64,000 nucleotides of DNA, from the NCBI GenBank assembly GCA_013359255.1, contig JABWCF010000007.1:1-64000 (forward strand), written 5' to 3'. A program made the translations under genes and the position numbers. This DNA is from Flavobacteriales bacterium. GTDB lineage: Bacteria > Bacteroidota > Bacteroidia > Flavobacteriales_E > Vicingaceae. The notes beneath the pieces are model-generated. The model worked only from the letters and a program-made list of their open reading frames with translations, was not told where the DNA came from and searched no databases. Positions 3,001 through 48,989 of this stretch are shown piece by piece; positions within the stretch are counted from its first letter, which is position 1; each line of letters starts with the position of its first letter.

Positions 3001-3403
3001 ATTTCCTTTCGAAAATCCTGGACCCCAACCAAGCGGTAATCCCTATTTTCAAACACAAGACATAAACCAACCTATGCCTTTGTGGAACGCTTTTATTTCT
3101 AGGTTTGATTTGGAAAGTATTGGCGTGGGAGTGAGTGAAGAAAAAGCGGAAACAATTTCTCTGAAGGGAATAAATATTTTCCCCAATCCTTCTTTTGGTT
3201 TGCTTAACATACATTTTCAGGAGAATGCAGAGGGTTACATCAATTTGCTTGACAGTCGTGGCACACTCGTAAAACAATGGAAAATAAATGCTGCGAAAGA
3301 GCAAATAATGCAAGTAGATATTGAAACCTTCAGTCCTGGTATTTATCTCATTCAACTGCAAACCGAAAAAGATTCCCAAACCGCTAAATTTATAAAACAA
3401 TGA
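1..3403 (+). CDS. T9SS-secreted beta-propeller (SBBP/DUF7948-type) protein, 5' partial
   Basis: The frame is open from base 2 with no stop, so the gene starts upstream of the window. A GTG at 146 is internal and is not a credible start. The visible protein has an N-terminal set of SBBP-like beta-propeller repeats ending near the sequence ATVKYIE. A DUF7948-like domain follows (NLGQ, then FYTQQSNPALYF), and then a second propeller whose repeats read like WSTFYGG followed by YxxGxT. The last 75 or so residues are a type A T9SS sorting domain (IFPNPS, then GIYLIQL, then KFIKQ). It is probably a large secreted adhesin-like or structural surface protein; no enzymatic motif is visible. Its stop overlaps the next start as ATGA, so translation is likely coupled. 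Function is unknown. Confidence 0.85.
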   Translation, partial: ITSTRVTIAGATQVGAVDWDYLSVAYNPSSGNYITHSTSTGGTAGFDKVHDLQTDASGNFYLTGTVFNASTGYDILTVKLDDNLNVIWSANYNSTSTMNDVGNALAVDNAGNVMVTGFSETSTEGTNYVTIQYNSSGTQQWVKTFNGEGNAADTARAIAIDANDNIYITGSSFNGSTEDFYTTKYKSNGTELWGIAFNSLYNGSDRAFDIALDSLGGVLVSGQSQTQTGFEYATVKYIEKNVTLVQDTVLAPASWSFTANLGQLIDTDTLVAEDVLFYTQQSNPALYFQNDRFNYVWAKLDTSGSGNDTLHRVDMYFYNANTTKARAHNKQAFYTNYFLGYIPEHRAKVPHYDNLYYNNVWDNIDMQCGSDPKGFKYFIVVKPNGDPADIEFRYSGQNSLAIDGNGNLLIISSIDTLVQPEPTAWEIDANGNVTMLNWTASYSINGSNVTLSLGGSYTSTKTLVLGVGWEAYQTGGIASNGNLWWSTFYGGNESDWGLDVVTDNSNNSYMVGKTMSSDFPITTGLNVMPFGGQTDGFMVKFNNQAVRQWATYYGGMQYDAVQGIVYNQMADPMLGQIYIVGTTASNDLKIVPNLNPLDGTYYKSDFSGNHDAFIARFDNGGYLKWSAYVGGSAYDEGLSITADHTGNVYITGNTFSTTAQANSCLGTTGTQFPLCDPGNGAYYQNFNAGGQDVFITGFDFSNNLRWSTFYGSNVDDRVYEIHFSKGVGDSGNDHVYIVGHTEKTSPSGTYNGSVPGNGAFPLCDLPGSNDFFQIGRDGFISRFHISGTLDWATNMNNINGFHTVTSHGEYVYVGGFANTSGVSSCSPSANNVPVCNVQGGFYETTGNMYLAKFKTAGAELKWSTLYKGYADIINSTYLNSVFMQGAPYRKILDAATDASGNLYVIGSNMGYDFVPQASTPSGMYYKSSYNGGQYDDLAEVVLLSFDSDNYRVWASYFGTNAGNNSTPFTHPLYVDMGAAITVFETKDLYIVGYAGNLNAGFPFENPGPQPSGNPYFQTQDINQPMPLWNAFISRFDLESIGVGVSEEKAETISLKGINIFPNPSFGLLNIHFQENAEGYINLLDSRGTLVKQWKINAAKEQIMQVDIETFSPGIYLIQLQTEKDSQTAKFIKQ

Positions 3404-4839
3404 AAAAAATAATTTTAGTTACCCTTATTGCTTTTACCACCTCTCTTGCAGCAGCCCAAAACTGGGCGGCTGTGGGGGTGGTTAGCAATGCTGTACACTC
3501 GCTCTATACAGACACTATCGATGATGTGTTGTATATAGGAGGAGGGTTTAAAATGTTGAATGGAGACACTGTTTTTGGTATAGTGAAATACGATGGAAGC
3601 AATTTTTATCGCATGGGATGTGGATTAGGGTGGGATTGCTCAACCACTTTTATCGGAAACCTAGGCTCTAGTATATATGGTGCTAAGGGAATATGCCGTT
3701 ATAATAATGAGATTTTTACTACAGGAGCTTTCAGTAATTCAAATGGCATACAACTGAACGGCCTTGCCCGCTGGGATGGAAACAACTGGCAACCTATGGG
3801 CACGGGCCTAAAAAATGAATACGGAGGAAATTCCGGGGGGAGCTCTTTAAAAGTGCTGAACAACGAGTTATATGTATGTGGTTACATGGATAGTTGTGCA
3901 GGCGTAGCTGTCAACGGAATAGCTAAATACAACGGAGTAAGCTGGAGTGCCGTACACAATATACCGCGTTTTAATCCTAATCAGAGCAATTATATTTACG
4001 ATATGGAAATATACAACGGAGATATTTACGTGTCGGGTAATTTTTACGACAGCATTGGAGGCGATATCTGGCGCATCGCCCGGTGGAACGGAAGCCAGTG
4101 GGTGGGCGTTGACGGTGGCATGAAAGGCGGCATTGGAGATGTCAATAAAATGGTGGTATATAAGGGCTTATTGTACGCAGCAGGTGTTTTCGAAAGTGCC
4201 GGAAGCAACCCCCATGCTAAATATATTGCCACCTGGGACGGCACGAAATGGGAAAATGTAGGAGGAGGGATTTCTTATTCAGGCTCTGCACAAATATCCG
4301 ATATGAAAGTGTACAAGGATAAATTGTATATTGTGGGTTGGTTTAGTCAGGCTGGTGGCATACCTGCCAAGCAATTAGCCGTGTGGGACGGAGTAAATTG
4401 GTGTAGTTTTGATACAACAAATACTTCTTTTGATAATATTATACTTGCATTGGGTTTTTACCAAGACACCCTTTACATAGGAGGTGGATTTTGGTCGGTG
4501 GATGGAGATACCAATATTGCCCGTATTGCCAAATACATTGGAGCAGGACCTGATACCTGCGGTAATACTACGGGCATAAACGAAAACAAGGTACAAACCG
4601 AAGGTTTACGTGTTTACCCCAACCCGGCAAGCAACAACGTAACCATAGAGTGGAGTAAAGAGCTACAAGTGCAAAGCCTTGCCGTTTTTGATTACCTTGG
4701 CAGAGAGGTGCTAAATGAAAAACTTAGCAATAACACCCACAGCTTGCAATTAGATGTTTCTGCCTTACCACAGGGAATGTATTTTTTGCATTTGCAAACC
4801 GAAAAAGATTTGCAAACCGCTAAATTTATAAAACAATGA
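3400..4839 (+). CDS. T9SS-secreted propeller-repeat protein, paralogue A
   Basis: This exported 479-residue protein begins with a Sec signal peptide (MKKIILVTLIAFTTSLAAAQ). The body has at least five degenerate repeats of the form AxWDGxxWxxxGxG (for example LARWDGNNW, IAKYNGVSW, IARWNGSQW, IATWDGTKW, LAVWDGVNW), which suggests a beta-propeller. A type A T9SS domain closes it (VYPNPAS, then DYLGREV, then GMYFLHLQTEKD and KFIKQ). It overlaps the genes on both sides by ATGA. The following gene is a close duplicate over its full length. The protein would be carried across the outer membrane by the T9SS and anchored or released. Ligand and role are unknown. Confidence 0.88.
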   Translation: MKKIILVTLIAFTTSLAAAQNWAAVGVVSNAVHSLYTDTIDDVLYIGGGFKMLNGDTVFGIVKYDGSNFYRMGCGLGWDCSTTFIGNLGSSIYGAKGICRYNNEIFTTGAFSNSNGIQLNGLARWDGNNWQPMGTGLKNEYGGNSGGSSLKVLNNELYVCGYMDSCAGVAVNGIAKYNGVSWSAVHNIPRFNPNQSNYIYDMEIYNGDIYVSGNFYDSIGGDIWRIARWNGSQWVGVDGGMKGGIGDVNKMVVYKGLLYAAGVFESAGSNPHAKYIATWDGTKWENVGGGISYSGSAQISDMKVYKDKLYIVGWFSQAGGIPAKQLAVWDGVNWCSFDTTNTSFDNIILALGFYQDTLYIGGGFWSVDGDTNIARIAKYIGAGPDTCGNTTGINENKVQTEGLRVYPNPASNNVTIEWSKELQVQSLAVFDYLGREVLNEKLSNNTHSLQLDVSALPQGMYFLHLQTEKDLQTAKFIKQ

Positions 4840-6278
4840 AAAAGCTAATTTTAACTGTTATTATTGCATTTACTACATCCCTTGCAGCAGCCCAAAATTG
4901 GGCGGCTGTGGGGGAGGTTAGCAATGGCGTATACACTCTCTATACCGACACCGTAGATAATGTGTTGTATATTGGTGGTTCCTTTACCTATTTTAACGGA
5001 GATACTGTTTTTGGTATTGTGAAATACGATGGAAGTAATTTTTACCGTATGGGATGTGGTTTAGAGTGGGATTGCAGTTTTATTCCCGGAGGAGGGAATA
5101 TTGTTGTTAAACCAAACAGTATTGTAAGATACAACAATGAAATATACATAGCTGGAAATTTTACTAAATCAAACAATGTTACCTTGAACGGCCTTGCCCG
5201 TTGGGATGGCAGCGACTGGCAGCCATGCGGCACGGGCTTAAAAAATGAATATGGTGGAAATTCCGGGGGGAGCTCTTTAAAAGTACTGAACAACGAATTG
5301 TATGTGTGTGGTATCGGCCTTGACTCTTGCGCAGGTGTGCCTGCTAACGGAATAGCCAAATACAATGGGGTAAGCTGGAGTGCCGTACACAATATACCGC
5401 GTTTTAAACCTAATCAGAGCAATTATATAACCGATGTGGAAGTGTACAACGGAGACATTTATGTATGCGGTAATTTTTACGATAGTATTGGAGGCGATAT
5501 CTGGCGAATTGCCCGGTGGAACGGAAGCCAGTGGGTGGGCGTTGACGGTGGAATGAAAGGAGGTATTGGAGGAGTTAATAAAATGGTGGTGTACAAAGGA
5601 TTATTATACGCAGCAGGGATTTTTGGAAGTGCAGGGAGCAATCCTCACGCCAAAGGCATTGCCACATGGGACGGCACAAAATGGGAAAATGTAGGGGGAG
5701 GAATTTATTATCCTTGGCCCATGAGTATGCAGATATTCGATATGAAGGTGTATAAGGATAAATTGTATATTGTTGGTTGGTTTAGTCAGGCTGGCGGCAT
5801 ACCTACCAAGCAATTAGCCGTATGGGATGGAGTAAATTGGTGTAGTTTTGATACAACAAATACTTCTTTTGATAATGTTATACTTGCATTGGATTTTTAC
5901 CAAGATACCCTTTACATAGGAGGGGGATTCTGGTCGGTAGATGGAGATACCAACATTACCTACATTGCTAAATACATTGGAGCAGGGCCTGATACCTGCG
6001 GTAATACTACGGGCATAAACGAAAACAAGGTACAAACCGAAGGTTTACGTGTTTACCCCAACCCCGCAAGCAACAGCATAACCATAGAATGGAGCGAAGA
6101 GCTACAAGTGCAAAGCCTTGCTGTTTTCGATTACCTTGGCAGAGAAGTGCTAAAAGAACAAGTAAGCAATAACAGCGGCAGCACACAGTTAGATGTTTCT
6201 GCCTTGCCACAGGGCATGTATTTTTTGCACTTGCAAACAGAAAAAGATTCCCAAACCGCTAAATTTATAAAACAGTAA
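4836..6278 (+). CDS. T9SS-secreted propeller-repeat protein, paralogue B
   Basis: A tandem copy of the preceding gene (480 against 479 residues) with near-identical signal peptide, repeats and sorting domain. The two differ mainly around residues 45-100 and 285-295, where short insertions and substitutions cluster. The start overlaps the upstream stop as ATGA, and this last copy ends in TAA. The repeats (AxWDGxxW) and the T9SS tail are as in its partner. The two copies start 1436 bases apart, as expected from an unequal crossover that duplicated one whole gene. No catalytic residues are seen; the likely role is a surface or matrix protein, possibly varying between strains. Confidence 0.88.
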   Translation: MKKLILTVIIAFTTSLAAAQNWAAVGEVSNGVYTLYTDTVDNVLYIGGSFTYFNGDTVFGIVKYDGSNFYRMGCGLEWDCSFIPGGGNIVVKPNSIVRYNNEIYIAGNFTKSNNVTLNGLARWDGSDWQPCGTGLKNEYGGNSGGSSLKVLNNELYVCGIGLDSCAGVPANGIAKYNGVSWSAVHNIPRFKPNQSNYITDVEVYNGDIYVCGNFYDSIGGDIWRIARWNGSQWVGVDGGMKGGIGGVNKMVVYKGLLYAAGIFGSAGSNPHAKGIATWDGTKWENVGGGIYYPWPMSMQIFDMKVYKDKLYIVGWFSQAGGIPTKQLAVWDGVNWCSFDTTNTSFDNVILALDFYQDTLYIGGGFWSVDGDTNITYIAKYIGAGPDTCGNTTGINENKVQTEGLRVYPNPASNSITIEWSEELQVQSLAVFDYLGREVLKEQVSNNSGSTQLDVSALPQGMYFLHLQTEKDSQTAKFIKQ

Positions 6279-9026: not shown

Positions 9027-9482
9027 CTATAAACAAAGTTGGGAGTAGTTTGGAATTTCTTTTAAAAAAGTATATTTCTTGTTTTTATGATCCATTATAC
9101 AGTAGAAATGAGAAAGGCCATTACTAACCATTAAGTACGGAACATTTAAAACCATATTGTAAGTAGCAATTTGATCGAATGTTTGTTGCGAAATTTCTAC
9201 AAAAGGGGCCTTACACTCTACTATTAAAAGGGGCGTTTTATTTCGATTATATGCGATTACATCGGCCCGTTTGAATAAAGTGTTTAACTTTAGCCCGATT
9301 TCAACACCAATAAGTGTTCGTGGAATTTTTTTTTCGTTTACAAGAAATTCTATTAAGTGTTGCCTTACCCATTCTTCGGGGGTAAGTAATACCTGTTTTT
9401 TTCGGGTGCGATCAAAAATTTTAAGTCCCTCTTTGGTGTTAGTTAATTGAAAATTATATGAAGGAAAATTTAATTGCAGCAT
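9027..9482 (-). CDS. orphan HsdR N-terminal-domain (PD-(D/E)XK fold) protein
   Basis: At 151 residues this is only the nuclease-fold domain found at the N terminus of type I restriction HsdR subunits. The restriction-type motif is visible: E61, D74 (RADVIAY), then E89-C-K91, followed by a QxxxY motif (Q104 to Y108). No helicase domain, HsdM or HsdS is nearby, so this is not a restriction system. In Bacteroidota, such single-domain proteins are commonly found beside holA, and holA is 2.4 kb away here. The N terminus MLQLNFPSY resembles that of family members, which supports this start. That start codon overlaps the divergent start at 9481 within a CATG. It may be a DNA repair or processing nuclease; the function is not established. 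Confidence 0.82.
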   Translation of the reverse strand: MLQLNFPSYNFQLTNTKEGLKIFDRTRKKQVLLTPEEWVRQHLIEFLVNEKKIPRTLIGVEIGLKLNTLFKRADVIAYNRNKTPLLIVECKAPFVEISQQTFDQIATYNMVLNVPYLMVSNGLSHFYCIMDHKNKKYTFLKEIPNYSQLCL

Positions 9483-11121
9483 GAACTATTTTTTTATCAG
9501 CGTTTTCATTTTTGTTTTATCCGAACAGATATTTGCATTCACTGTTCCGTCTTCGTTTATCATAGAAAATGCTCCTCAAAAATGTATACCTCAATTAGTG
9601 CAGGATAAAAAAAATGGAAACAAAATGTACATTCAAACTCCGTTTGCATCACCTGTAATCATAAGTTCTGTGAACAAAGATATACTTAAAAAGAAAACCA
9701 TTACTCAAATAGAATTAGTTTATACTACTTATAGATTATCCGAAAAATTTAATCAAACAAAATTAAATTATAACCGGCTTGAAAAGTTAAGAAATGCCGC
9801 TCCTTTTCTGTTTACAGAAAACACCATTGAATGGGTATTTACAGCTCAAACAGCCTGCGTTTCTCCGGCCGATGGAAAAAATTATTTTCATGGATTTGTT
9901 ATTCATTTTCGATCTGAAGCCACCTTAGAAGAAGCTAAGCGTGAAGTAGAATATTTAGAGAGGCTGCTTGGAGAAAAAACTTCTCAGGCCACTGAAGAGG
10001 TTTTTGTAAAACAAGGTAAATTTAAAATGGCTCATGTAGATATGTTGGCCGAATTTAATGGCGGAAAAACGGCCCTAAACAATCATATAAATGAAAATAT
10101 AAACTATCCTGAAAAAAACAGTAACACCAGAATAAAAGGCATTATCCTCACTTCTTTTACGGTAAATGAAAACGGTAAAATAAGCGATGTGCAATTGGTA
10201 AACGGAAGCAAAACCCATTACGACAGCGTGGTAGTAGAAATGATAAAAAAAATGCCTTTATGGAAGTCTGCATTATTAAACGGAAGAAATACGTCTTCAA
10301 CCTTTGTGCTTCCTCTTAAATTTTACGAAAACGGAAAAGTAGAAGTAGCCCAAAGTTTACTAAAAGAAAACGATGGATTTGATTATGCAGAATACTTGAT
10401 GCTCAATCAGGGATTAACCATGGTGCCTATAAAAGAAACTCCAGTGGTTACAGCTAAGGAAGTAAAACTTACGTTGCCCGATTCTTCTGTATTTCGAATC
10501 TTGGAACGAAATACCGAATGGAATCATTTGCTTGTAGCCATAGACGTAACCGGAAGCATGTATCCTTATTTAGCACAGGTTTTATTGTGGTATAAAGAAA
10601 ACGAAAAAACTTTTTCACCTAAAGTAAAAATGTTTGCGTTTTTCAACGATGGAGATAATAAGCCCGATAGAGAAAAGAAAACAGGTAGTGTAGGTGGAAT
10701 TTATACCGGAAATTATTTAGGTTATGAAACGCTGAAAAACAACATGAAATTTGCCATGGCTCATGGAGGGGGAGGCGACAGGGAAGAAAACAACATCGAA
10801 GCCATTTTGAATGCAAATGCGAAGTGCCCCGATTGTACAAACATTTTAATGATTGCCGATAATTTTGCCACTCCTCGCGATTTATCGTTGGCAAATCAAG
10901 TTACCCACCCTGTACATGTGTTATTGTGCGGTACTCATTTTGGAATCAACACACATTATCTCAATTTGGCGAGGGCTACAAAAGGAAGTGTGCGTACCGC
11001 AAATCAAGATATTGTAAACTTGCATAAATTAGCCAATGGAGATGAGATAGAAATAGAGGGAATGCATTACATATTGCAACAGAATAAATTCGAGCAGGTA
11101 TTTAAAAAAAGAAACCCATGA
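9481..11121 (+). CDS. exported TonB_C / von Willebrand factor A fusion protein
   Basis: A 546-residue exported protein with a signal peptide (residues 1-20). Residues 196-290 resemble the TonB C-terminal domain (INYPEK, then GIILTSFTVNENGKISDVQLVNG). Residues 348-520 look like a vWA domain with a MIDAS-like motif D355-V-T357-G-S359-M, with Thr in place of the usual first Ser. A stretch GGGGDREENNIEA follows. There is no transmembrane anchor in front of the TonB_C domain, so it is not a standard TonB. Its ATG shares two bases with the start of the divergent HsdR-N gene, and its stop overlaps amn as ATGA. It may be a periplasmic metal-dependent interaction protein; the function is unknown. Confidence 0.8.
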   Translation: MNYFFISVFIFVLSEQIFAFTVPSSFIIENAPQKCIPQLVQDKKNGNKMYIQTPFASPVIISSVNKDILKKKTITQIELVYTTYRLSEKFNQTKLNYNRLEKLRNAAPFLFTENTIEWVFTAQTACVSPADGKNYFHGFVIHFRSEATLEEAKREVEYLERLLGEKTSQATEEVFVKQGKFKMAHVDMLAEFNGGKTALNNHINENINYPEKNSNTRIKGIILTSFTVNENGKISDVQLVNGSKTHYDSVVVEMIKKMPLWKSALLNGRNTSSTFVLPLKFYENGKVEVAQSLLKENDGFDYAEYLMLNQGLTMVPIKETPVVTAKEVKLTLPDSSVFRILERNTEWNHLLVAIDVTGSMYPYLAQVLLWYKENEKTFSPKVKMFAFFNDGDNKPDREKKTGSVGGIYTGNYLGYETLKNNMKFAMAHGGGGDREENNIEAILNANAKCPDCTNILMIADNFATPRDLSLANQVTHPVHVLLCGTHFGINTHYLNLARATKGSVRTANQDIVNLHKLANGDEIEIEGMHYILQQNKFEQVFKKRNP

Positions 11122-14260: not shown

Positions 14261-14268
14261 TACATTTG
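14261..14268 (+). promoter_or_regulatory. -7 promoter element of the cobalamin locus
   Basis: The octamer TACATTTG matches the Bacteroidota -7 consensus TAnnTTTG exactly. It ends about six bases before the first base of the riboswitch P1 helix, which is where transcription would be expected to start. No clear TTG -33 element lies 17-23 bases upstream. Inference from position and consensus. Confidence 0.55.
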
Positions 14269-14273
14269 CCTTC

Positions 14274-14450
14274 GATAACGGTTCTTTATTATTCATTTGA
14301 GTAATAAGATGAAAAGGGAATCGGGTGTAAATCCCGAACAGTTCCCGCTGCTGTAAGCACCGTCAAGCGTTGCCACTTCAAAGTCACTGCCCCTTTATAG
14401 GGAGTGGGAAGACAGGTAACAGGGTGTAAGTCAGAAGACCTGCCATTATC
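14274..14450 (+). ncRNA. cobalamin (B12) riboswitch
   Basis: An adenosylcobalamin-type riboswitch aptamer. The core reads GGGAATCGGGTGTAAATCCC at 14315-14334, followed by GAACAGTTCCCGCTGCTGTAAGC, the usual conserved core. The B12 box at 14429-14444 reads AGTCAGAAGACCTGCC. The ends pair as a P1 helix: GATAACGG at 14274-14281 with CCATTATC at 14443-14450, one mismatch. A GTCACTG / GGGAGTGGGAAGAC element lies between. It should reduce expression of the downstream TonB receptor operon when B12 is plentiful. No obvious intrinsic terminator follows, so control is probably by access to the translation start. Confidence 0.93.
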
Positions 14451-14553
14451 CAATTTTTAGTAGATGCTTTCGGAGAAAAGGCTCGCAAAACTTTTGAAGT
14501 TCAACTGTTTTTACACCCCATTTTCCATAGCATTTACGCCAACAAGTACGTTT

Positions 14554-16473
14554 ATGCTAAAAAAAATAGGTACGGGAATATGGTTTTGTTTGGTCTTCAC
14601 CTATTGGTGCAAGGCAGATAGTATGCATACCGATACCATAATACCTCTTGCCACCTTCGAAGTAAAATCGAATCGTTTATTTCAATTTTCTGCCGGAAAT
14701 AAAATGATTTCAATAGACAGTGCAGATTTAGCAAAACATTTATCCTATAGCTTGGCCGAGCTATTGAGAAACGAAACCCCGCTTTACATAAAATCTTACG
14801 GAGCAGGAAATCTGGCTACTTCTTCGTTTAGGGGAGGGAGTGCTGCACACACAGCGGTGCTGTGGAATGGATTTAATATTAATAATGCAGCTACCGGACA
14901 GGTGGATTTTTCTATAATTCCACTTTTTGCCGTAAATACAGTTACCGTACAACACGGTGGAGGTGGCACGCTTTGGGGAAGTGGTGCTGTTGGAGGGAGT
15001 ATTCATTTACAGAATAAACTTTCTTTTTACAAAGGAATAGAGGCTTCTGCTTGTTTAACAGCCGGAAGTTTTGGGAAATTATCTAAACAAACTTCATTTA
15101 TTTTAAGCAGAAAAAGATGGGCAAGCTCAGTGAGTATTTTTAATACTACGGCAAAAAATAATTTTTCTTTTATAAATCCTTACACTAACGAAAAGCAAAT
15201 CCAAGCAAATGCTGAGCAACAGGGAATAGGTGTAATTACCGATCATTCGTTTAAGATGAAAGAAAATATGTGGTTGAATTTCTCTTCATGGTATCAACAA
15301 AATAACCGAAACATTCCTGTAGCCATTAATCAGATGACACATAAAGCCTATCAGAAAGACGAGGTACTTAGGTGTAGTTCCGAGTGGAAATATTTTAGAA
15401 ATGCGTTTAATTACTTTATTAGAACAGCTTATTTTAATGAACAAATGCTTTATGTAAACGATATTGCAACTATTCAATCCGGAAACAAAACAAACACGGT
15501 AATTGCCGAAACAGAAACACGTTGGTTTTTTTTACCAAACCAATGCTTAAACATAGGTAGTAACCATACCTTTATTTCTCTTCATTCATCGGGTTTTGAA
15601 GATAAACACAATCAGAACAAAACCGCTTTTTTTATTTCGCACGGTGCAAAATATTTTAAAGAAAAACTAAAAACTACCATTTCGGGACGAAAGGAATTTT
15701 TGCAACATCAAAACATTCCCTTTACCTATGCTGCAGGAGTATCGTATTTGCTTTTTGAGGAAATTGAGTGGAAAGCTGCCTATTCAAAAGTTTTTAGATT
15801 GCCCACATTTAACGACTTATACTGGCAGCCAGGAGGCGATAAAAACCTTTTGCCGGAGAACGGATATTCTGGCGAAATAGGTTTCTTGATAGATACCAAA
15901 GAAAGATTCAAAAGCTGGCATTTCAAAACGGAACAAACCTATTTCAGCCGAGTGATGCACAATTGGATTATATGGCTACCGCAAGGAAGTTTCTGGGTTC
16001 CTCAAAATATAATGGAGGTATGGAGCAGAGGAGTAGAAACTCGTTCTTCTCTTACTTACTTGGCGGGTAAAACAAACATTTCTTTGTTTCTGCTTACCAA
16101 CTATGTAGTTTCAACCAATCAAAAAATAAAATCGGAAAATGATGCATCGTTTGATAAGCAGCTTATATATGTTCCCATGTATAGTGGCAGTGCAAGGCTT
16201 TCCGCATCGAATCGTTTTTTTGAAATTTCTGTTGCTAATCAATATACAGGATACCGATATATTAGTTCAGATAATTCCGAATATTTATTGCCTTTTTATA
16301 ATACTCATGCAAGGTTTTCTTACATTTTACCAATGCAAGAAATCTCTCTTTCTTTGTTTTTTTCTGTAGAGAATATTTTTAATACATCTTACATGTTGGT
16401 GCAGAGTTATGCAATGCCATTGAGAAATTACAATACCGGAATAATCATTAAATACCATAAGTCAAAAATCTAA
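14554..16473 (+). CDS. btuB: TonB-dependent outer-membrane receptor, probable cobalamin transporter
   Basis: From this ATG the protein has 639 residues and starts with a good signal peptide (MLKKIGTGIWFCLVFTYWC). An in-frame ATG at 14464 would add 30 residues and bury that signal. A plug domain (ELLRNETPLYIKSYGAGN, then SFRGGSAAHTAVLWNG) is followed by a beta-barrel with many aromatic-ended strands. There is no carboxypeptidase-regulatory domain, so it is a BtuB-like receptor and not SusC. The riboswitch directly upstream is the main reason to assign cobalamins as substrate. The gene symbol is by context and fold; DUF4465 and BtuG-like genes follow within six bases to 2 kb. Confidence 0.85.
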   Translation: MLKKIGTGIWFCLVFTYWCKADSMHTDTIIPLATFEVKSNRLFQFSAGNKMISIDSADLAKHLSYSLAELLRNETPLYIKSYGAGNLATSSFRGGSAAHTAVLWNGFNINNAATGQVDFSIIPLFAVNTVTVQHGGGGTLWGSGAVGGSIHLQNKLSFYKGIEASACLTAGSFGKLSKQTSFILSRKRWASSVSIFNTTAKNNFSFINPYTNEKQIQANAEQQGIGVITDHSFKMKENMWLNFSSWYQQNNRNIPVAINQMTHKAYQKDEVLRCSSEWKYFRNAFNYFIRTAYFNEQMLYVNDIATIQSGNKTNTVIAETETRWFFLPNQCLNIGSNHTFISLHSSGFEDKHNQNKTAFFISHGAKYFKEKLKTTISGRKEFLQHQNIPFTYAAGVSYLLFEEIEWKAAYSKVFRLPTFNDLYWQPGGDKNLLPENGYSGEIGFLIDTKERFKSWHFKTEQTYFSRVMHNWIIWLPQGSFWVPQNIMEVWSRGVETRSSLTYLAGKTNISLFLLTNYVVSTNQKIKSENDASFDKQLIYVPMYSGSARLSASNRFFEISVANQYTGYRYISSDNSEYLLPFYNTHARFSYILPMQEISLSLFFSVENIFNTSYMLVQSYAMPLRNYNTGIIIKYHKSKI

Positions 16474-16478
16474 AAATT

Positions 16479-17465
16479 ATGAAATCACTTACAAAAATTA
16501 CACTCGCCTCAATGTTGTTTATTTGCACAACCTTTACACAATCTCAAACCATTTCTACGCATGAAGAAATGCCTCTTGCTCCTAATTCGTATTGGAATGG
16601 CTCTTCTAATCCAATGGGTACAACATTTACCAGTGGAAACGCAATATTTCCGAATATGTACGATACCAGTTGGGGAGGATTTTGGGCCAGCGGATTTGCA
16701 TACAGTAATTTGAAGGATAGTATTACTCCGGGATTTGCTAATTTGTATGCAGCCAGAACAGCGGGTGGTTATAACGGTTCAGACCATTACGCTATTGCTC
16801 AGCAAAACGCCATTATAAAATTAAACGGCAATGCAGCGGGAAAAGTGGTTAATGGTTTTTTTGTTACCAACTCTACGTATGCCGCGTTAAGTATGCGAGA
16901 TGGTGATATGTTTTCTAAAAAATTTGGAGGAGTTTCCGGCAACGATTCCGATTGGTTTAAATTAGTAGTACGTAAATACTACGGAGGCAATTTAAGTGCC
17001 GACAGCGTAGAATTTTATTTAGCCGATTATCGTTTCTCGAATAATGCACAAGATTACATTTTAACTATGTGGGAATGGGTAGATATAACATCTCTTGGCA
17101 ATGTCGATAGTTTATTATTCACGCTATCATCAAGTGATGTTGGTCAATGGGGAATGAATACCCCAGCCTTCTTTTGCATGGATAATTTTACCACAGCCGA
17201 TAGCGGAGTAGGTATTTCCGAATGGAAAAACAAAGCACGGATTACATTTTTTCCTAATCCGGTTATCGATTACCTAACTATTTATCTTCCTCAAAAAACG
17301 AAATCCATTTTACAAATCTTTAATAACGAAGGAAAATTAATTTATGAGGAAAAAATAGAGGAAAAAAGTGCCACCGTCTATTTAAACAAATTAAATAGTG
17401 GCTTGTATTTTCTTAAAATATTCGATGGCGAAAATGTATACAATGAAAAATTTATGAAACAATGA
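16479..17465 (+). CDS. DUF4465-type surface protein with T9SS tail, B12 locus
   Basis: An exported 328-residue protein with a signal peptide (residues 1-22). The central domain shows features of DUF4465: WNGSSNPMGTTFTSG, WGGFWASGFAYSN, GSDHYAIA, then WFKLVVRKYY and DSVEFYLADYR. DUF4465 proteins recur in cobalamin-riboswitch loci of Bacteroidota. The last 75 residues form a type A T9SS domain (FFPNPVIDYL, then GLYFLKIF and KFMKQ), so the protein would be exported by T9SS, not as a lipoprotein. It lies six bases after the receptor gene and five before the next. Probable role: cobalamin capture at the cell surface, which is inference. Confidence 0.82.
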   Translation: MKSLTKITLASMLFICTTFTQSQTISTHEEMPLAPNSYWNGSSNPMGTTFTSGNAIFPNMYDTSWGGFWASGFAYSNLKDSITPGFANLYAARTAGGYNGSDHYAIAQQNAIIKLNGNAAGKVVNGFFVTNSTYAALSMRDGDMFSKKFGGVSGNDSDWFKLVVRKYYGGNLSADSVEFYLADYRFSNNAQDYILTMWEWVDITSLGNVDSLLFTLSSSDVGQWGMNTPAFFCMDNFTTADSGVGISEWKNKARITFFPNPVIDYLTIYLPQKTKSILQIFNNEGKLIYEEKIEEKSATVYLNKLNSGLYFLKIFDGENVYNEKFMKQ

Positions 17466-17469
17466 TATC

Positions 17470-18459
17470 ATGAAACAAATTCTAATTTTCTTTACTTGCT
17501 TGCTGTCTATACAGTCAATGGCTCAATTTCCTCCGGCTGCAGGAAAACCTGGTTCTACAGCCATACATGCCGATAGCAATGTGTTTGTGGCATGGGCCAG
17601 TGCCTGTTATGTTAAAAGGGGCTGGCAAGATGTATCCAATCAAACACTTGGGTACACTACGGTTGGTGATTCTTCTTCGGCTGTTGGTAAAGCCGGAATA
17701 AATGGAGTAGTGAGTTTAGGTGATGGAGGAGAAGCGGTGCTCTTATTCGATGCTCCTGTTACAAATGGCTCCGGTTGGGATTTTGCTGTATTCGAAAATT
17801 CTTTTAGCGATTATTTTTTAGAATTAGCTTTTGTAGAAGTAAGTTCCGATGGCATCAATTTTTTTCGCTTTCCCTCCACCTCTTATACTCAAACCGATGT
17901 GCAGGTGGGTACTTTTGATACATTAAATCCGGAAAAAATAAATAATCTAGCAGGAAAGTATAGAGCATTGTACGGCACTCCTTTCGATTTACAGGAATTA
18001 GAAAATACTCCCGGATTAAATGTAAATGCCATTACACATGTAAAAATCATAGATGCAATAGGAAGTATTCAATCATTATTTGCAACCTACGATCAGTATG
18101 GAAATAAAGTTAACGACCCTTGGCATACACCTTTTCCATCAGGTGGCTTCGATTTAGATGCAGTCGGTGTCATTCATTATCTTTCTACAAAAATAGAGGA
18201 AACAGCCCCTTTGTTTCTTGTACAAATGTATCCGAATCCCGCATCGCATCACATAACCATTAGATTCAATACGGCCCATGAAATAGATTATATTGAGGTA
18301 ATTGATAATATAGGTAGAGCAGAAAATATTTTTATTATAAAACAAGATAAAAGCGAGGTATTACTAGACATCTCTACACTTAAAAATGGCTTATATTATC
18401 TAAATATAGTTTCTGGTAATAAAATATTTAATCAAAAAATTATAGTAAATCATGAGTAA
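17470..18459 (+). CDS. T9SS-tailed cell-surface protein of the B12 locus
   Basis: An exported 329-residue protein with a signal peptide (residues 1-18). The mature part resembles a family often labelled cell surface protein, seen beside cobalamin transporters: GVVSLGDGGEAVLLFDAPV, then WDFAVFENSF and FVEVSSDGINFFRFP, ending near GFDLDAVGVIHY. A type A T9SS domain follows (MYPNPASHHITI, then GLYYLNIV). It starts five bases after the DUF4465 gene, and its last eight bases overlap the next gene. I infer a role in binding or presenting cobamides to the TonB receptor; no binding residues can be named. Confidence 0.75.
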   Translation: MKQILIFFTCLLSIQSMAQFPPAAGKPGSTAIHADSNVFVAWASACYVKRGWQDVSNQTLGYTTVGDSSSAVGKAGINGVVSLGDGGEAVLLFDAPVTNGSGWDFAVFENSFSDYFLELAFVEVSSDGINFFRFPSTSYTQTDVQVGTFDTLNPEKINNLAGKYRALYGTPFDLQELENTPGLNVNAITHVKIIDAIGSIQSLFATYDQYGNKVNDPWHTPFPSGGFDLDAVGVIHYLSTKIEETAPLFLVQMYPNPASHHITIRFNTAHEIDYIEVIDNIGRAENIFIIKQDKSEVLLDISTLKNGLYYLNIVSGNKIFNQKIIVNHE

Positions 18460-19495
18460 TAAAAGGAGCTATAACCTATTTATTTTTTTTGTAATGTTTG
18501 GTTTTTTATCTTGTCGGAAAGATAAACCGGCTGATAAGATAAAACCGAACATAATGATACAGCAGGGAGGAGTATTTATATCAAACGAAGGAAATTTTCA
18601 GTTTGGCAATGCAAAAATATCCTATTACAATCCGTCCGAAAATTCGATTTCCGAAGATGTGTTTGAAACGGCCAACAATAGGCCGCTGGGAGATGTTTGC
18701 CAATCGGTATGTTTTTACAATAGTAAAGCATATGTGGTAGTTAATAACTCAGGTAAAATTGAAGTAGTAAATGAGAAAACTTTTGTTTCAACGGCTATCA
18801 TCAACGGGTTCGTTTCTCCTCGCTATTTCTTGCCGGTAAGTAATGCAAAAGCATTTGTTACCGATTTATATACAAATAAAATTTACGTAGTCGATTTAAC
18901 CACCAATCAAATTTCGGGAAATATTCCTGTGGGAGGCTGGTGCGAAGAGATGGCTATGGTGTACGGAAAAGTGTTTATAACCTCTAAAGAAGGTAATTAT
19001 TTATATGTAGCAGATGCCATAAATGATTTATTAATAGACAGTATTCAGATTGGTTTCTCGTCAAATTCTATTGTACAAGATAAGAATGCAAAGTTGTGGG
19101 TGCTTTGCGATGGCAATCAAACAAATTCCATTTATCCATCGTTGCACAGAATAAACCCTGCTAACCATATGGTAGAACAATCTTTTCAGTTTTCAAGTAT
19201 CAACGATGCCCCCTGGCGACTTAAACTGAATGGCAGTGCCGATACTCTTTATTTCTTAAACAAAGGCGTATATAAAATGTCTATTTTGGAAAACACTATT
19301 CCTTTACAGCCATTTATTTCTTCCTCCGGGAGTAATTTTTACGGGTTGGGTGTAAACCCCGAAAATTCTGAAATCTATGTATCCGATGCCATCGATTATG
19401 TCCAAAAAGGGCAGATATATAGATATAAGTCTTCAGGAAGTCTTATGAATACTTTTAAAGCAGGAATTATTCCAAGCGATTTTTATTTCAGGTAA
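18452..19495 (+). CDS. BtuG-like beta-propeller surface lipoprotein
   Basis: A lipoprotein of 347 residues: a hydrophobic leader ends in the lipobox FLS-C21, and the residues after the cysteine are RKDK. The mature protein has repeated propeller blades of the YncE/DUF5074 type (GKIEVVNEKTF, NKIYVVDLTTNQI, NYLYVADAIND, EIYVSDAIDY). BtuG of Bacteroides is a beta-propeller lipoprotein that caps BtuB and binds cobalamin very tightly. The fold, lipoprotein signal and riboswitch-controlled locus all fit that role. It overlaps the upstream gene by eight bases and is the last gene of the operon. Confidence 0.8.
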   Translation: MSNKRSYNLFIFFVMFGFLSCRKDKPADKIKPNIMIQQGGVFISNEGNFQFGNAKISYYNPSENSISEDVFETANNRPLGDVCQSVCFYNSKAYVVVNNSGKIEVVNEKTFVSTAIINGFVSPRYFLPVSNAKAFVTDLYTNKIYVVDLTTNQISGNIPVGGWCEEMAMVYGKVFITSKEGNYLYVADAINDLLIDSIQIGFSSNSIVQDKNAKLWVLCDGNQTNSIYPSLHRINPANHMVEQSFQFSSINDAPWRLKLNGSADTLYFLNKGVYKMSILENTIPLQPFISSSGSNFYGLGVNPENSEIYVSDAIDYVQKGQIYRYKSSGSLMNTFKAGIIPSDFYFR

Positions 19496-19574: not shown

Positions 19575-22500
19575 ATGAAAAAATCAATATTCTTTATCGG
19601 TAAGATTACCCTTGCCATTCTGTTTGTGCTTTCGGCTTTTGCCGCTCATAGCCAACAATTTCACAAAGATTACCAAGATGGTAAAATTTGGTTTAAACTA
19701 AAAGATAATTATCTCGTAGTGAAGCATGCGGTAATAGGGGAATCGGTAGTAGAAAACCCTTGGAATGTTCCTTTAAACACATTGCCATTTGTGCAAAATT
19801 TAGCAAGTACATACCAAATAACTCTGCTTCAGCGTCCGTTTTTTGCTGCCAAAAATTCACCCGAATTACAAAGAACCTACGAGTTGCATTTTGCCGATTA
19901 TCAGAATGTAGAAACGATTATTAAAGATTTAATAAAGACGGGAGCTGTTGAGTATGCCGAAAAAGTGCCCAACGACCAGTTATTTTTAACTCCCAACGAT
20001 CCTCAATACAATGGTTCTAATCAGTGGGGTTTGTTTAAAATTTTAGCAGGGCAGGCTTGGGATATTTCTACAGGAAGTGCAAGCATAAAAGTTGCAACAG
20101 TTGATAATGCAATACAAACCAATCATGCCGATTTACAACCTGCCATGTGGGTAAATCCGGGCGAAACACCGGGAAATGGCATTGATGATGATGGCAATGG
20201 ATATATTGATGATCTAAATGGATACGATGTAGCCGATAATGATAATAATCCAAACCCACTAAATTCTTCATGGGATCATGGCACACACGTAGCAGGAACC
20301 ACCGGAGCAAAATCGAATAATGGAACCGGAGTAGCCTCCATAGGTTATGGAATATCTATTGTAGCGGTTAAAGCGACCAAAAACAGTAGTAGTCCATCAT
20401 CTGTAACCGATGGGTATGCAGGGATTACATACGCAGTAGCAGCCGGATGCAAAGTAATCAATTGTTCTTGGGGAGGTACCGGATTTTCTCAAACCGGCCA
20501 AAATGTAATCAATAATGCATGGAACAATGGTTGCATTGTAGTAGCTGCAGCAGGAAACAATAATGTTCAAACCCAATTTTACCCTGCAGCATACACTAAC
20601 TGTTTTTCTGTAGCATCTACTACTTCTACCGATACCAAGTCGGGCTTTTCGAACTACGGTACATGGGTTGATATTTCGGCCCCCGGAAGCAATATTTTAA
20701 GCACTGTTCCATTCGGAAACTATGCATACATGTCGGGAACTTCTATGGCATCACCCTTAGTATCCGGTTTATTAGGCTTAATGTACTCTTACAATCCGGG
20801 AATGAGCAAAACCGATGTGTTAAATTGTGTAACCAGCACAGCCGTAAACATAGATGGACTAAATCCAGGATATGCCGGCAAATTAGGAGCAGGTAGAATT
20901 AATGCTTTCGCTGCTATGCAATGTGTATCTGGTACTTTAAACCAACCTCCTGTGGCAGATTTTACATCGAATGTAACAACCGTAACGGCAGGTGGAAGCG
21001 TTAATTTTACCGATTTATCGTATAATAATCCAACAACGTGGAGTTGGAATTTTGGAGGAGGAGGTACGCCCAATACTTCTTCACAAAAAAACCCAACGAT
21101 ACAATTTAACACTCCGGGCACATACACCGTTACACTTACCGCAACAAACGGCAATGGAAATGATGTAGAAACTAAAACGAACTACATAACTGTAACTCCC
21201 AACACAGGATGCGATACCGTTACTAATATACAGCCCGGTGATAATATTTACATTTGGAGTTTTTCGGGTAATGGTGGATATATTGGAGGGCATAACAACC
21301 AAAGTGTAACGCGTTGGGCTGAATATATAACAGGATTTTCTCCTAACACACATGTGCAAGGAGCCTACTTTTATATTCCTAAAGCAAAAGTAAATGGAGT
21401 AGGTAACGTAACTTTTAGATTATATAATAATAATGGACCCGGAGGGGCACCAGGAACAACCATAGCCACAAAGGTGATGGCAATAGCAGATATTGTTCCA
21501 AATATCACACAAAATGGTTTTTATCCAACCTATGTTCATTTTAATGCACCTATTGCTGTGCCAAATAGTTTTTATATTGGGTATGAAATAGTAAATGCTA
21601 TCGGAGATACAATAACCACCGCGTTAACACAAAACCTAAATCCAGGCCCAAGGCCAAATACGTTATGGATGTATAATTTGGGAGGAAATGCTACGTGGCA
21701 AAATGCTGAATTAGTTTTTGGAGGAGCTCCGAGATGGAATATGCATGTGTACATTTTAGGAACCACATTACCTGTTACCGCAAATATTACTCCTGTAACC
21801 GCTACCGTTTGTCAGGATTCTACTTTAACTTTAAGCGGAAGCACTTCAGTAAATGCCGCAACGTATAAGTGGTATTTCAATGGTTCAACTTTTCAAACTC
21901 AGTCTACGCAAATGAGCCCGGCAGTTACATACAATATTCCGGGAACACACAAGCAGTATTTAATTGCGTACAATAGTTGTGGGTTTGGTCAGCTCGATTC
22001 TTCTACGGTAACAGTAAACCCAAAACCTACAGTAAACGTAAGTGCTGCAAACGATACTATTTGCAAAGGATTGTCTACGACTCTTTCTGCCAGTGGTAAT
22101 GCAAGTACATATACTTGGGATAATGGTTTGCCAAATGGGGTAGGGCCTCATACTGTTTCGCCTACAAATTCTACAACCTATACAGTAACCGGAACAAATG
22201 GTCAGGGTTGTAAAAATTCTTCATCGGTAACAATTACTGTACAAGATGTTCCTCAGGCGGCAGCCTCGTATAATCCAACAAATATTTGTGAAAACCAACC
22301 GGTGGTATTTGATGGTAGTAATTCTGTTGATGCCAACACTTTTAGTTGGGTTTTCAGTGGAGGTTCACCAGCCACGTCATCGTTGCCTTTTGAATCGGTA
22401 ACGTATGTGGCTGTGGGTACATATAATTACACTTTAGTAACGTCAAATAATTGCGGTAATGATACAGCTTCCGGGTCGGTAAACGTGGTTTCGTGTGTAG

Positions 22501-22769
22501 GTGTAAACGAATTGAATGTGAATAATGCAATTACGTCTTTTTACAATCAACAAGGAGAATTGGTTATTCGTTTTAATAATGCATTAGCCGGAAATTATAC
22601 TGTTAATCTAATGAATAGCATGGGGCAGTTGGTAGTTTCTACGGTTTTATCTGTTGATAATTCAACTATGGTAAAGCTTGTGAATATTGGTAATTTAAGT
22701 GACGGAGCATACCATGTAGTAATTGTTGGAAACGAAAATATATACACTAATAAGTTTGTAAAGTTCTAG
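19575..22769 (+). CDS. large S8 subtilase with PKD domains and T9SS tail
   Basis: A secreted protease of 1064 residues. Signal peptide residues 1-26; prodomain to about 140; S8 catalytic domain about 145-455 with D177 (TVDNAIQTNH), H235 (WDHGTHVAG), N328 (AAAGN) and S390 (SGTSMASP). An acidic NGIDDDGNGYIDDLNG loop at 201-216 could bind calcium. A PKD domain (PVADFTSN, then WSWNFGGG) spans about 455-545. An unassigned beta domain (545-750) and more Ig/PKD-like modules follow, then a T9SS-type C terminus ending KFVKF. It is probably a cell-surface or released protein-degrading enzyme, transcribed on its own after the B12 operon. Confidence 0.9.
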   Translation: MKKSIFFIGKITLAILFVLSAFAAHSQQFHKDYQDGKIWFKLKDNYLVVKHAVIGESVVENPWNVPLNTLPFVQNLASTYQITLLQRPFFAAKNSPELQRTYELHFADYQNVETIIKDLIKTGAVEYAEKVPNDQLFLTPNDPQYNGSNQWGLFKILAGQAWDISTGSASIKVATVDNAIQTNHADLQPAMWVNPGETPGNGIDDDGNGYIDDLNGYDVADNDNNPNPLNSSWDHGTHVAGTTGAKSNNGTGVASIGYGISIVAVKATKNSSSPSSVTDGYAGITYAVAAGCKVINCSWGGTGFSQTGQNVINNAWNNGCIVVAAAGNNNVQTQFYPAAYTNCFSVASTTSTDTKSGFSNYGTWVDISAPGSNILSTVPFGNYAYMSGTSMASPLVSGLLGLMYSYNPGMSKTDVLNCVTSTAVNIDGLNPGYAGKLGAGRINAFAAMQCVSGTLNQPPVADFTSNVTTVTAGGSVNFTDLSYNNPTTWSWNFGGGGTPNTSSQKNPTIQFNTPGTYTVTLTATNGNGNDVETKTNYITVTPNTGCDTVTNIQPGDNIYIWSFSGNGGYIGGHNNQSVTRWAEYITGFSPNTHVQGAYFYIPKAKVNGVGNVTFRLYNNNGPGGAPGTTIATKVMAIADIVPNITQNGFYPTYVHFNAPIAVPNSFYIGYEIVNAIGDTITTALTQNLNPGPRPNTLWMYNLGGNATWQNAELVFGGAPRWNMHVYILGTTLPVTANITPVTATVCQDSTLTLSGSTSVNAATYKWYFNGSTFQTQSTQMSPAVTYNIPGTHKQYLIAYNSCGFGQLDSSTVTVNPKPTVNVSAANDTICKGLSTTLSASGNASTYTWDNGLPNGVGPHTVSPTNSTTYTVTGTNGQGCKNSSSVTITVQDVPQAAASYNPTNICENQPVVFDGSNSVDANTFSWVFSGGSPATSSLPFESVTYVAVGTYNYTLVTSNNCGNDTASGSVNVVSCVGVNELNVNNAITSFYNQQGELVIRFNNALAGNYTVNLMNSMGQLVVSTVLSVDNSTMVKLVNIGNLSDGAYHVVIVGNENIYTNKFVKF

Positions 22770-31655: not shown

Positions 31656-33206
31656 ATGAATAAAATTAAAATTCTTTGGGCCGATGATGAAATCGATTTG
31701 CTAAAACCACATGTTATTTTTTTAGAGGAAAAAGGATATGATGTTACTGCTGTGCTTAGTGGAAACGAAGCCATTGAAAAAATTGGCGAACAAAAATTTG
31801 ATATCGTTTTCTTAGATGAAAATATGCCTGGGCTAAGTGGGTTAGAAACCTTGCAACAGATTAAAGAAAAATCGCCCTCCGTACCGGTAGTTATGATTAC
31901 AAAAAGCGAAGAAGAATCGATTATGGAAGGTGCCATAGGCTCAAAAATTTCCGATTATCTTATTAAGCCAGTAAATCCTAAGCAAATACTTCTTTCTATT
32001 AAGAAAAATTTAGATTCGGGAAGATTGGTTTCGGAAAAAACAACCATGAATTATCAACAGGAATTTCGCAATATAGGAATGAGCATAAGCAATCGCTTAG
32101 ATTTTAACGAGTGGGTAGATATCTACAACAAATTGCTTTATTGGGAACTTGAACTAGAAAAACTTAAAGACCGCAGCATGGAAGAGATTCTAAAAATGCA
32201 GAAAAATGAAGCCAATCACGTATTCTGTAGTTTTTTAGAGAAAAACTATATCCAATGGCTAAAAGACGCAGAAAATGCCCCCGTTATGTCGCATACGGTT
32301 TTTCGAAAAAAAATTGCTCCCAAAATAAACAACGATTCCCCCTTATTTTTAGTAGTTATCGATAATTTGCGTTTAGACCAGTGGCACGCCATAAAGCCAC
32401 TCATCTGTGAACATTTTTGGATTGATACGGAAGAAGCATATTACAGTATATTGCCCACTACTACACAATATGCTCGCAATTCCTTTTTTGCTGGTTTGTT
32501 GCCTTCTGAAATTGAAAAGAAATACCCCGATTTGTGGTTGAATGACGAAGATGAAGGCAGAAAAAATATGCACGAGCCTGAATTGCTAGAATCTCAGTTA
32601 AAACGACTAGGTAAAGACATAAAACCATCGTACAATAAGGTGTTAAACCAATCGTATGGGCGTAAATTAATAAATGATATCCCCAATATGATGCAGCGAC
32701 CTTTAAACGTAATTGTATACAATTTTATTGATATGCTTTCTCATGCTCTTACCGATACTGATATTGTTCGCGAATTGGCAGAAGATGAGCCGGCCTATCG
32801 TTCTTTAACTCTTAACTGGTTTGAACGATCCCCTCTTTTTGAAGCATTAAAAAATATTGCAGCCCGCAAAGGCCGAGTAATTATTACTACCGACCATGGC
32901 TCGGTAAGAGTAAAAGACCCCGTTAAAATTGTGGGCGACAAAACTGTAAATTCTAATTTGCGATACAAACAAGGAAAAAATTTGAGTTACTCTGCCAAAG
33001 AGGTTTTTGAAATAAAAAACCCGGCCGAGGCTTTTTTGCCAAAAGTTAATGTTAGTCAGGCATACGTTTTTGCCCGCGAATATAGTTTTTTTGCATACCC
33101 CAATAATTATAACCATTACGTAAAATATTATGCCGATACATTTCAACATGGAGGTATTTCATTAGAAGAAGTAATTATTCCTATAGTGCATCTCCAACCA
33201 AAGTAA
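31656..33206 (+). CDS. porX: T9SS regulator PorX (receiver + PglZ phosphatase)
   Basis: This 516-residue protein is a hybrid that controls type IX secretion. Residues 1-120 are a receiver domain with D54 (VFLDENMPGLSG), T82 and K104 (LIKPV). Residues about 160-515 form a PglZ/alkaline-phosphatase-superfamily domain: D236 (LVVIDNLRLDQW), a threonine cluster at 268-270 (ILPTTTQYARN) that includes the expected nucleophile, then DMLSH and TTDHGSVRV as metal ligands. In Porphyromonas and Flavobacterium, PorX is required for T9SS function and hydrolyses cyclic or linear oligonucleotides. It is divergent from the HD gene and four bases before tsaE. Confidence 0.95.
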   Translation: MNKIKILWADDEIDLLKPHVIFLEEKGYDVTAVLSGNEAIEKIGEQKFDIVFLDENMPGLSGLETLQQIKEKSPSVPVVMITKSEEESIMEGAIGSKISDYLIKPVNPKQILLSIKKNLDSGRLVSEKTTMNYQQEFRNIGMSISNRLDFNEWVDIYNKLLYWELELEKLKDRSMEEILKMQKNEANHVFCSFLEKNYIQWLKDAENAPVMSHTVFRKKIAPKINNDSPLFLVVIDNLRLDQWHAIKPLICEHFWIDTEEAYYSILPTTTQYARNSFFAGLLPSEIEKKYPDLWLNDEDEGRKNMHEPELLESQLKRLGKDIKPSYNKVLNQSYGRKLINDIPNMMQRPLNVIVYNFIDMLSHALTDTDIVRELAEDEPAYRSLTLNWFERSPLFEALKNIAARKGRVIITTDHGSVRVKDPVKIVGDKTVNSNLRYKQGKNLSYSAKEVFEIKNPAEAFLPKVNVSQAYVFAREYSFFAYPNNYNHYVKYYADTFQHGGISLEEVIIPIVHLQPK

Positions 33207-48234: not shown

Positions 48235-48989
48235 TATCCTTCAAAAGTAAATGAAAGTAAAAACATTTTAGAACGCAGCACATCTATTGGCGAAGAAAAG
48301 ATAGTAGGCGGAGTATCGGGTACTAAAATATTTTTTATACCGTAAGACATTTTAAGTTCCAGCCCAAACTTAAAATACTCTAGATAAAATTCCATTCCCC
48401 AACCGGCCTCAAAATGATAATCGTTTCGCCTTATTTTAACTACGATATCGCTTAAGTTGTTTCCGGCATTATCGGCTTTTTCGTTGCTGGCTAAGTCTAA
48501 CGAGTATTTTCCTCCGGCAATTACATACCCACTAAAATTGTTTACCCTGTCGGATTTTAATTTGAAAAGTATCGGAAATTCAAGGTATGTAGATTCTACC
48601 TGCTTTACAAAGGCTACGTATTTTTTACCTTGAAATTGGTAATTAATATCGCGTTGGGCAAATGATAAAGAAGGTACGAAACGCATTTTAATATTTTTTG
48701 TAATATGCAGTTCGGATACAATCCCTAAATTAAATCCGGGTTGTTTGGTAACGTCTAGTATCATTAAAGAATCAAAAACCTGATTGGGCGGTTTTCTGTG
48801 CAATGTGAAATCTGCGTTGTTTACTCCTAGAATAAAGCCAAAATGAAATAAATTGTGGTCGAAGCGAGGTAAATTTTTGGGACGTTCTTTTTGGGCTTTT
48901 GCGTAGGTTGCTGTTAATACCAAACAAAAAATCAGAAGTAAGCAGGTTATGTTTTGGTTAATTTTCAATGTTAGTTTATAGTCGCCCAA
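48234..48989 (-). CDS. porT: T9SS outer-membrane protein PorT
   Basis: An outer-membrane beta-barrel of about 245-251 residues, a component needed for type IX secretion. A signal peptide precedes AKAQ. The barrel shows the PorT pattern: FHFGFILGVNNADFTLH, LGIVSELHITKNIKMRFVPSLSFAQR, YLEFPILFKLKS, FEAGWGMEFYLEYFKFGLELKMSYG. No ATG is available: an in-frame stop lies just upstream, so the start is a TTG at 48989 or at 48968, and the second gives the cleaner signal peptide. It sits 20 bases after ubiE, the usual neighbour of porT. Confidence 0.9.
   Translation of the reverse strand: MGDYKLTLKINQNITCLLLIFCLVLTATYAKAQKERPKNLPRFDHNLFHFGFILGVNNADFTLHRKPPNQVFDSLMILDVTKQPGFNLGIVSELHITKNIKMRFVPSLSFAQRDINYQFQGKKYVAFVKQVESTYLEFPILFKLKSDRVNNFSGYVIAGGKYSLDLASNEKADNAGNNLSDIVVKIRRNDYHFEAGWGMEFYLEYFKFGLELKMSYGIKNILVPDTPPTIFSSPIDVLRSKMFLLSFTFEG

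Follow-up and report, generated by a model that had tools for sequence, protein, structure and literature searches.

A riboswitch-preceded vitamin B12 uptake operon of Bacteroidota with accessory proteins that carry type IX secretion tails

What is known of vitamin B12 capture at the cell surface comes from work on gut Bacteroides, in which all of the accessory proteins are lipoproteins. The locus described here raises the question of how such accessory proteins would reach the surface, and what they would do there, when they carry a different export signal. It lies in a stretch of 64,000 nucleotides (the window) from a Flavobacteriales bacterium (assembly GCA_013359255.1, contig JABWCF010000007.1, positions 1–64,000) and consists of a cobalamin riboswitch followed, in this order, by genes for a BtuB-type receptor, a DUF4465 protein, an unnamed conserved protein here called P4, and a BtuG-like lipoprotein. 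The best reading, which we consider probable, is that of a BtuB/BtuG core under riboswitch control, served by two capture proteins, the DUF4465 protein and P4, that are exported by the type IX secretion system (T9SS). The elements of the locus are:

14262–14461, plus strand: cobalamin riboswitch aptamer RF00174 (cmscan, 106.4 bits, E 1.2e-25)
14554–16473, plus strand: BtuB-type TonB-dependent receptor with plug and barrel domains (annotated frame opens at 14464)
16479–17465, plus strand: BtuJ-like DUF4465 protein, T9SS-tailed (PF14717, 166 bits against a cut-off of 25)
17250–17462, plus strand: type A T9SS C-terminal sorting domain of the DUF4465 protein (TIGR04183, 47.4 bits against 23; residues 258–328)
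17470–18459, plus strand: P4, unnamed conserved protein, T9SS-tailed, putative remote BtuH homologue (profile link and conserved neighbourhood)
17524–18198, plus strand: core domain of P4, predicted beta-sandwich (AlphaFold2, predicted local distance difference test (pLDDT) 89, predicted template modelling score 0.90)
18226–18450, plus strand: type A T9SS C-terminal sorting domain of P4 (TIGR04183, 40.5 bits against 23; residues 253–327)
18452–19495, plus strand: BtuG-like DUF5074 beta-propeller lipoprotein (PF16819, 88 bits against a cut-off of 27.2)

The aptamer is complete (model positions 1–189 of 189), exceeds the gathering score of 31.5 bits, and is the sole Rfam match found by cmscan across the 64-kb window. 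The receptor gene is separated from the DUF4465 gene by 5 bases (16473 to 16479) and the latter from the P4 gene by 4 bases (17465 to 17470), while the P4 and BtuG-like genes overlap by 8 bases (18452–18459). The initial annotation had read a clear cobalamin riboswitch, four genes with this spacing, and a TonB receptor, a DUF4465 protein and a BtuG-like propeller lipoprotein among the products; all of this is borne out by cmscan, the coordinates and the domain searches. We propose that the operon is repressed by cobalamin through the riboswitch. The arrangement is not due to chance and is no oddity of the window, since the operon is found family-wide: the riboswitch stands at a P4 operon with the same gene set in 22 of 23 scanned relatives, the lone exception being a locus that begins at a contig end. 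The receptor more likely begins at the ATG at 14554 than at 14464, because the latter sits only 2 bases past the aptamer, and it is after the second ATG that a signal peptide is encoded. Scans for promoter-like sequences gave chance-level matches only and were not used.

The sole relatives of the receptor among PDB sequences are BtuB2, BtuB3 and BtuB1 of Bacteroides thetaiotaomicron (best E 1.2e-43, residues 49–637); against the enterobacterial BtuB equivalog TIGR01779 it scores 88.6 bits, under the cut-off of 599.7. The BtuG-like protein carries a lipobox that reads FLSC and matches the B. thetaiotaomicron BtuG structure 8p97_B over residues 9–345 of its 347 (E 2.8e-74). The mechanism by which BtuG forms a lid on BtuB is established in B. 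thetaiotaomicron (PMC10404256), and the BtuG-like protein may work in the same way in this bacterium. The genome encodes the B12-dependent methionine synthase MetH (1738 bits), and a profile search of it did not find CbiC. Both findings would fit a bacterium that relies on uptake, although auxotrophy is not proved by a single marker.

The two proteins encoded between receptor and lipoprotein both bear type A T9SS tails and have no lipobox, as the initial annotation had noted; it was also right in placing porX and porT within the window:

31656–33206, plus strand: PorX, T9SS response regulator (NF052313, 824.6 bits against a cut-off of 300)
48234–48989, minus strand: PorT/SprT, T9SS component (NF052311, 212.3 bits against a cut-off of 125)

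PorU (1379 bits) and SprA (2632 bits) are encoded in the same genome. At the level of sequence, export through the T9SS is well supported for both accessory proteins, as is their family membership. SprA is absent from the two gut-type genomes examined (G283 and G275), whose BtuH and BtuJ are lipoproteins. A strict rule by which presence of the T9SS would entail T9SS-tailed accessories was rejected because two flavobacterial-type genomes (G290 and G365) have SprA, yet encode BtuH- and BtuJ-like proteins with a lipobox. The T9SS form is therefore optional, permitted by the secretion system and not forced by it.

DUF4465 is a B12-binding family. It includes BtuJ1 and BtuJ2 of B. thetaiotaomicron (PMC12751083), and six further divergent members bind B12, eight in all, with D5EK51 and Fluta among the family, Fluviicola F2I9N3 among the binders, and a hallmark B12-contacting tyrosine in 97% of the homologues (PMC13398666). 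The DUF4465 protein of the window matches the BtuJ1 structures 9fct and 9qpm (E about 4e-23), keeps the asparagine and threonine of the HI-loop motif NTPxY as well as the equivalent of Tyr146 (in VTNSTY), and likely binds B12. A T9SS tail on such a protein is not new, because the sorting domain IPR026444 has been counted on 229 of 824 DUF4465 proteins, never beside a lipobox (PMC12751083); the signals named in PMC13398666 are lipoprotein and periplasmic only. The notion that T9SS tails on B12 binders were unreported was rejected on the strength of that count. The interpretation offered by the initial annotation stands in part, as regards a riboswitch-controlled B12 operon, the BtuB/BtuG core and the two tailed accessories, but is in part already published, namely for DUF4465 with a T9SS tail; the half that concerns P4 was not found in the searched literature. 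Its proposals that B12 scavenging depends on the T9SS and that the exported proteins are anchored are kept here as hypotheses. It had not recognised DUF4465 as the BtuJ family, the second tailed protein as a putative distant relative of BtuH, or the arrangement as usual for the lineage. As a separate observation, tandem DUF4465 domains occur within single T9SS-type proteins (L071, L075, L064 and L135), of which L064 and L071 combine a copy that keeps the hallmark tyrosine with a copy that has phenylalanine.

Of 46 genomes from the same GTDB family, 41 contain P4 as a full-strength match, as against 25 of 46 for DUF4465. In stretches from same-family genomes it adjoins btuB and usually DUF5074 too, and it is kept even in loci without DUF4465. 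A scan of named genomes returned at least 565 relatives. Of 73 unique close P4s flanked by 3.5 kb or more on each side, 58 have btuB or DUF5074 on their own strand no further than 4 kb away, and the median gap from a close P4 to its nearest partner was −3 bases. T9SS-type tails were counted on 109 of 116 untruncated close P4s and a lipobox-like start on one; as an independent check, TIGR04183 matches 47 of 56 sampled members of the P4 family. Within the family set, wherever P4 has a neighbour immediately 5' of it, that neighbour is a T9SS-tailed protein: 38 of 38 cases, made up of 24 DUF4465 proteins and 14 others. Those of the 14 that were read are for the most part second beta-propellers, likewise T9SS-tailed. 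DUF4465 and P4 are fused in a single frame in two loci (L126:5263–6927 and L108:4315–6096), the first with a single T9SS tail for both domains. These fusions resemble the BtuG-BtuH fusion of B. thetaiotaomicron and lend support to a shared job. More widely, P4-type domains are present in 45 of 392 sampled Bacteroidota genomes; 36 of these 45 belong to a distant branch that is also mostly found beside btuB and DUF5074, with a riboswitch at 10 of 14 loci. The B12 operon with tailed accessories is the norm in this lineage and recurs across much of the phylum.

Some of these loci show further variation. A second beta-propeller, T9SS-tailed, often stands before P4 in loci without DUF4465 (L077:4939–6198, L091:5840–7108, L096:5660–6940 and others) and is possibly a BtuG-like protein delivered by the T9SS. 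A third T9SS-tailed accessory takes the slot in other riboswitch B12 operons (L164:4175–5362, L175:4808–5947 and L099:4691–5947); it contains a duplicated domain of about 150 residues, and outside the tail it matches nothing in Pfam or the PDB. In L112, a cobalamin riboswitch (5690–5874) directly precedes P4 (5926–6912), and no btuB or btuG was found in the retrieved stretch, which would make this a P4 that stands alone under B12 control.

The core of P4 matches no named family in Pfam, NCBIfam or PDB sequences, besides a weak, partial match to a leptospiral family discussed below. Matches to DHQ_synthase, THBD and similar Pfam entries were below cut-off and scattered, and were rejected. Profile comparison points to BtuH: the close P4s match the distant branch with P = 4e-27, and the distant branch matches BtuH with P = 1.7e-7. 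The BtuH set was taken from gut-type and flavobacterial genomes, one member being fixed by its match to 7biz (E 1e-206) and the rest aligning to that one. As controls for the link, 12 comparisons with unrelated profiles gave P values of at least 0.0019, the best of 30 column shuffles gave 0.058, and a reversed profile gave 0.21. In BtuH2, the phosphate of B12 is contacted by Asn399 and the lower ligand by Phe401, and the corrin by Tyr510, Trp511, His476 and Trp577 (PMC8941943). Asn399 aligns with an asparagine that is invariant in 39 of 39 P4s, and Phe401 with a phenylalanine in 38 of 39. AlphaFold models of a close and a distant P4 core (pLDDT 89 and 96) both have as their top Foldseek match in the PDB 8blw_B (E 6.6e-3 and 5.2e-5, respectively), which is B. 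thetaiotaomicron BtuG1 carrying a BtuH domain. P4 is accordingly put forward as a candidate: a remote homologue of BtuH whose cobamide site is predicted and unproven, and for which binding of a cobamide is plausible. It differs from the BtuH domain (7BIZ, or the H-domain of BtuG1 in 8BLW) in having no PKD or propeller partner but a T9SS tail.

The reading favoured here would run as follows. Shortage of B12 would lift the repression exerted through the riboswitch, and BtuB and the BtuG-type lid would be placed in the outer membrane. The DUF4465 protein and P4 would travel by Sec to the periplasm and by the T9SS across the outer membrane, their tails presumably being removed by PorU. On or close to the cell surface, both would then capture cobamides, which are scarce, and deliver them to BtuG/BtuB, such that T9SS export stands in for the lipid anchor of the corresponding B. 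thetaiotaomicron proteins. In this scheme we infer the hand-over, the anchoring and the dependence of uptake on the T9SS.

Several observations weigh against it. In the DUF4465 protein the HI-loop motif reads NTPAF, with phenylalanine at the position of BtuJ1 Tyr245, so that it departs from the DUF4465/IPR027828 family at the hallmark residue while sharing the domain; most close relatives do the same (phenylalanine in 39 of 59 related domains), and the change is therefore a feature of the lineage and not a sequencing error. The direct profile match between close P4s and BtuH is weak (37 columns, P = 0.0038), and the distant branch was collected because this match is too short to rely on. The four corrin contacts lie in BtuH segments that have no counterpart in the P4 alignment, which is why P4 is termed a remote homologue of BtuH and not BtuH. 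The initial annotation had proposed a Foldseek comparison of the product of 17470–18459 without its tail; the BtuH-bearing chain 8blw_B does rank first, but the superposition is poor (template modelling score 0.45, root-mean-square deviation about 12 Å), the search does not give the part of the chain that is matched, and BtuH2 itself (7biz) is outside the top 50 matches of the P4 models. Finally, SprA is present in 45 of the 45 P4-carrying genomes of the phylum sample, a co-occurrence that is modest evidence in favour of the reading, as SprA is common (320 of the 392 sampled genomes) and the genomes are not phylogenetically independent.

One alternative is that the DUF4465 protein and P4 are not anchored but released as soluble B12 carriers, a kind of "cobalophore" that is recollected through BtuG/BtuB. 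Type A cargo of the T9SS may be attached or released (PMC10202324); the BtuJ proteins of B. thetaiotaomicron act at a distance on vesicles (PMC12751083), and no attachment feature is seen in the sequence of either protein. Yet secreted carriers risk loss to neighbours, and no sequence feature separates release from attachment. We consider release possible, though on the unlikely side.

Another alternative concerns P4 alone, which might be a structural or docking partner of discoidin/CBM32 type that binds a surface glycan or BtuB/BtuG and positions the capture protein. The Foldseek matches of the P4 models beyond 8blw_B are CBM32/discoidin folds, the missing corrin contacts would be in keeping with such a role, and there is a precedent in BtuL and BtuK2, which belong to B12 operons of B. 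thetaiotaomicron yet showed no binding of B12 (PMC12751083). However, BtuH has a fold of this kind, resembling the alginate lyase AlyQ in DALI, and binds B12. The invariance of the asparagine equivalent to the phosphate-contacting Asn399 and the standing of P4 as the most constant accessory, retained where DUF4465 is missing, also speak against this alternative, and a pure docking role seems rather unlikely. That the tails are decorative, with accessories that are mainly periplasmic or poorly secreted and an uptake independent of the T9SS, is improbable: BtuB/BtuG alone could suffice, but both tails score above curated cut-offs and are kept in nearly all relatives, and the T9SS machinery in the genome looks complete.

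Capture by T9SS-exported proteins, the reading we prefer, is best set against B12 loci 1 and 2 of B. thetaiotaomicron (PMC8941943, PMC10404256, PMC12751083). Shared, within one operon, are the riboswitch, BtuB, the BtuG lipoprotein, a DUF4465 protein (BtuJ) and, if the profile link holds, a BtuH-related protein. In B. thetaiotaomicron the accessory proteins are lipoproteins, possibly carried on vesicles, whereas two accessories of the window bacterium have Sec signals and T9SS tails. A full-text literature search combining the T9SS with vitamin B12 found nothing relevant, and the P4 family, its probable link to BtuH and its almost invariable presence in B12 operons of the T9SS type appear to be the new part, not found in the searched literature. 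We put it at even chances that P4 is the first member of a new family of cobamide-capture proteins that are delivered by the T9SS and occur phylum-wide. Such a family would be remote kin of BtuH and, in Bacteroidota with a T9SS, the accessory most constantly found with BtuB/BtuG, occupying a fixed slot next to T9SS-tailed partners that can replace one another (DUF4465, a second propeller or the third domain).

A possible lead points beyond the phylum. NF033170, the Leptospira LIC_13355 family lipoprotein, matches 34 of 56 members of the P4 family (best E 4.9e-12), the P4 core of the window being the weak, partial match mentioned above. LIC_13355 has been studied as an adhesin, with no link to B12 mentioned (PMC11891782), and is a lipoprotein of spirochaetes, in contrast to the T9SS-tailed P4 of Bacteroidota. 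If the reading of P4 is true, a cobamide role would be worth considering for the LIC_13355 family, with a possible way into leptospiral lipoproteins.

Other genes of the window may be recorded here. Just 3' of the operon lies a gene (19575–22769) for a subtilase that also has PKD/Ig domains and ends in a weak T9SS tail, and a related gene is also found 3' of the same operon in several relatives. The protein encoded at 9481–11121 has a TonB C-terminal domain at 26.7 bits, against a curated cut-off of 27.1, and seemingly a VWA-like part. At 3400–4839 and 4836–6278, two adjacent, near-alike T9SS-tailed repeat proteins are encoded with a 4-base overlap and are apparently recent paralogues.

If the reading given here is true, many environmental Bacteroidota send B12-capture proteins through the T9SS, and vitamin acquisition would be tied to a system whose familiar cargo is proteases and the adhesins of gliding. 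P4, an unnamed conserved family, would gain a testable role with cobamides, and the fitness defects of T9SS mutants could be partly nutritional. Should P4 indeed found a family of capture proteins, B12 uptake in environmental Bacteroidota would be a T9SS-dependent relay or a secreted cobalophore, replacing the lipoprotein system of gut Bacteroides.

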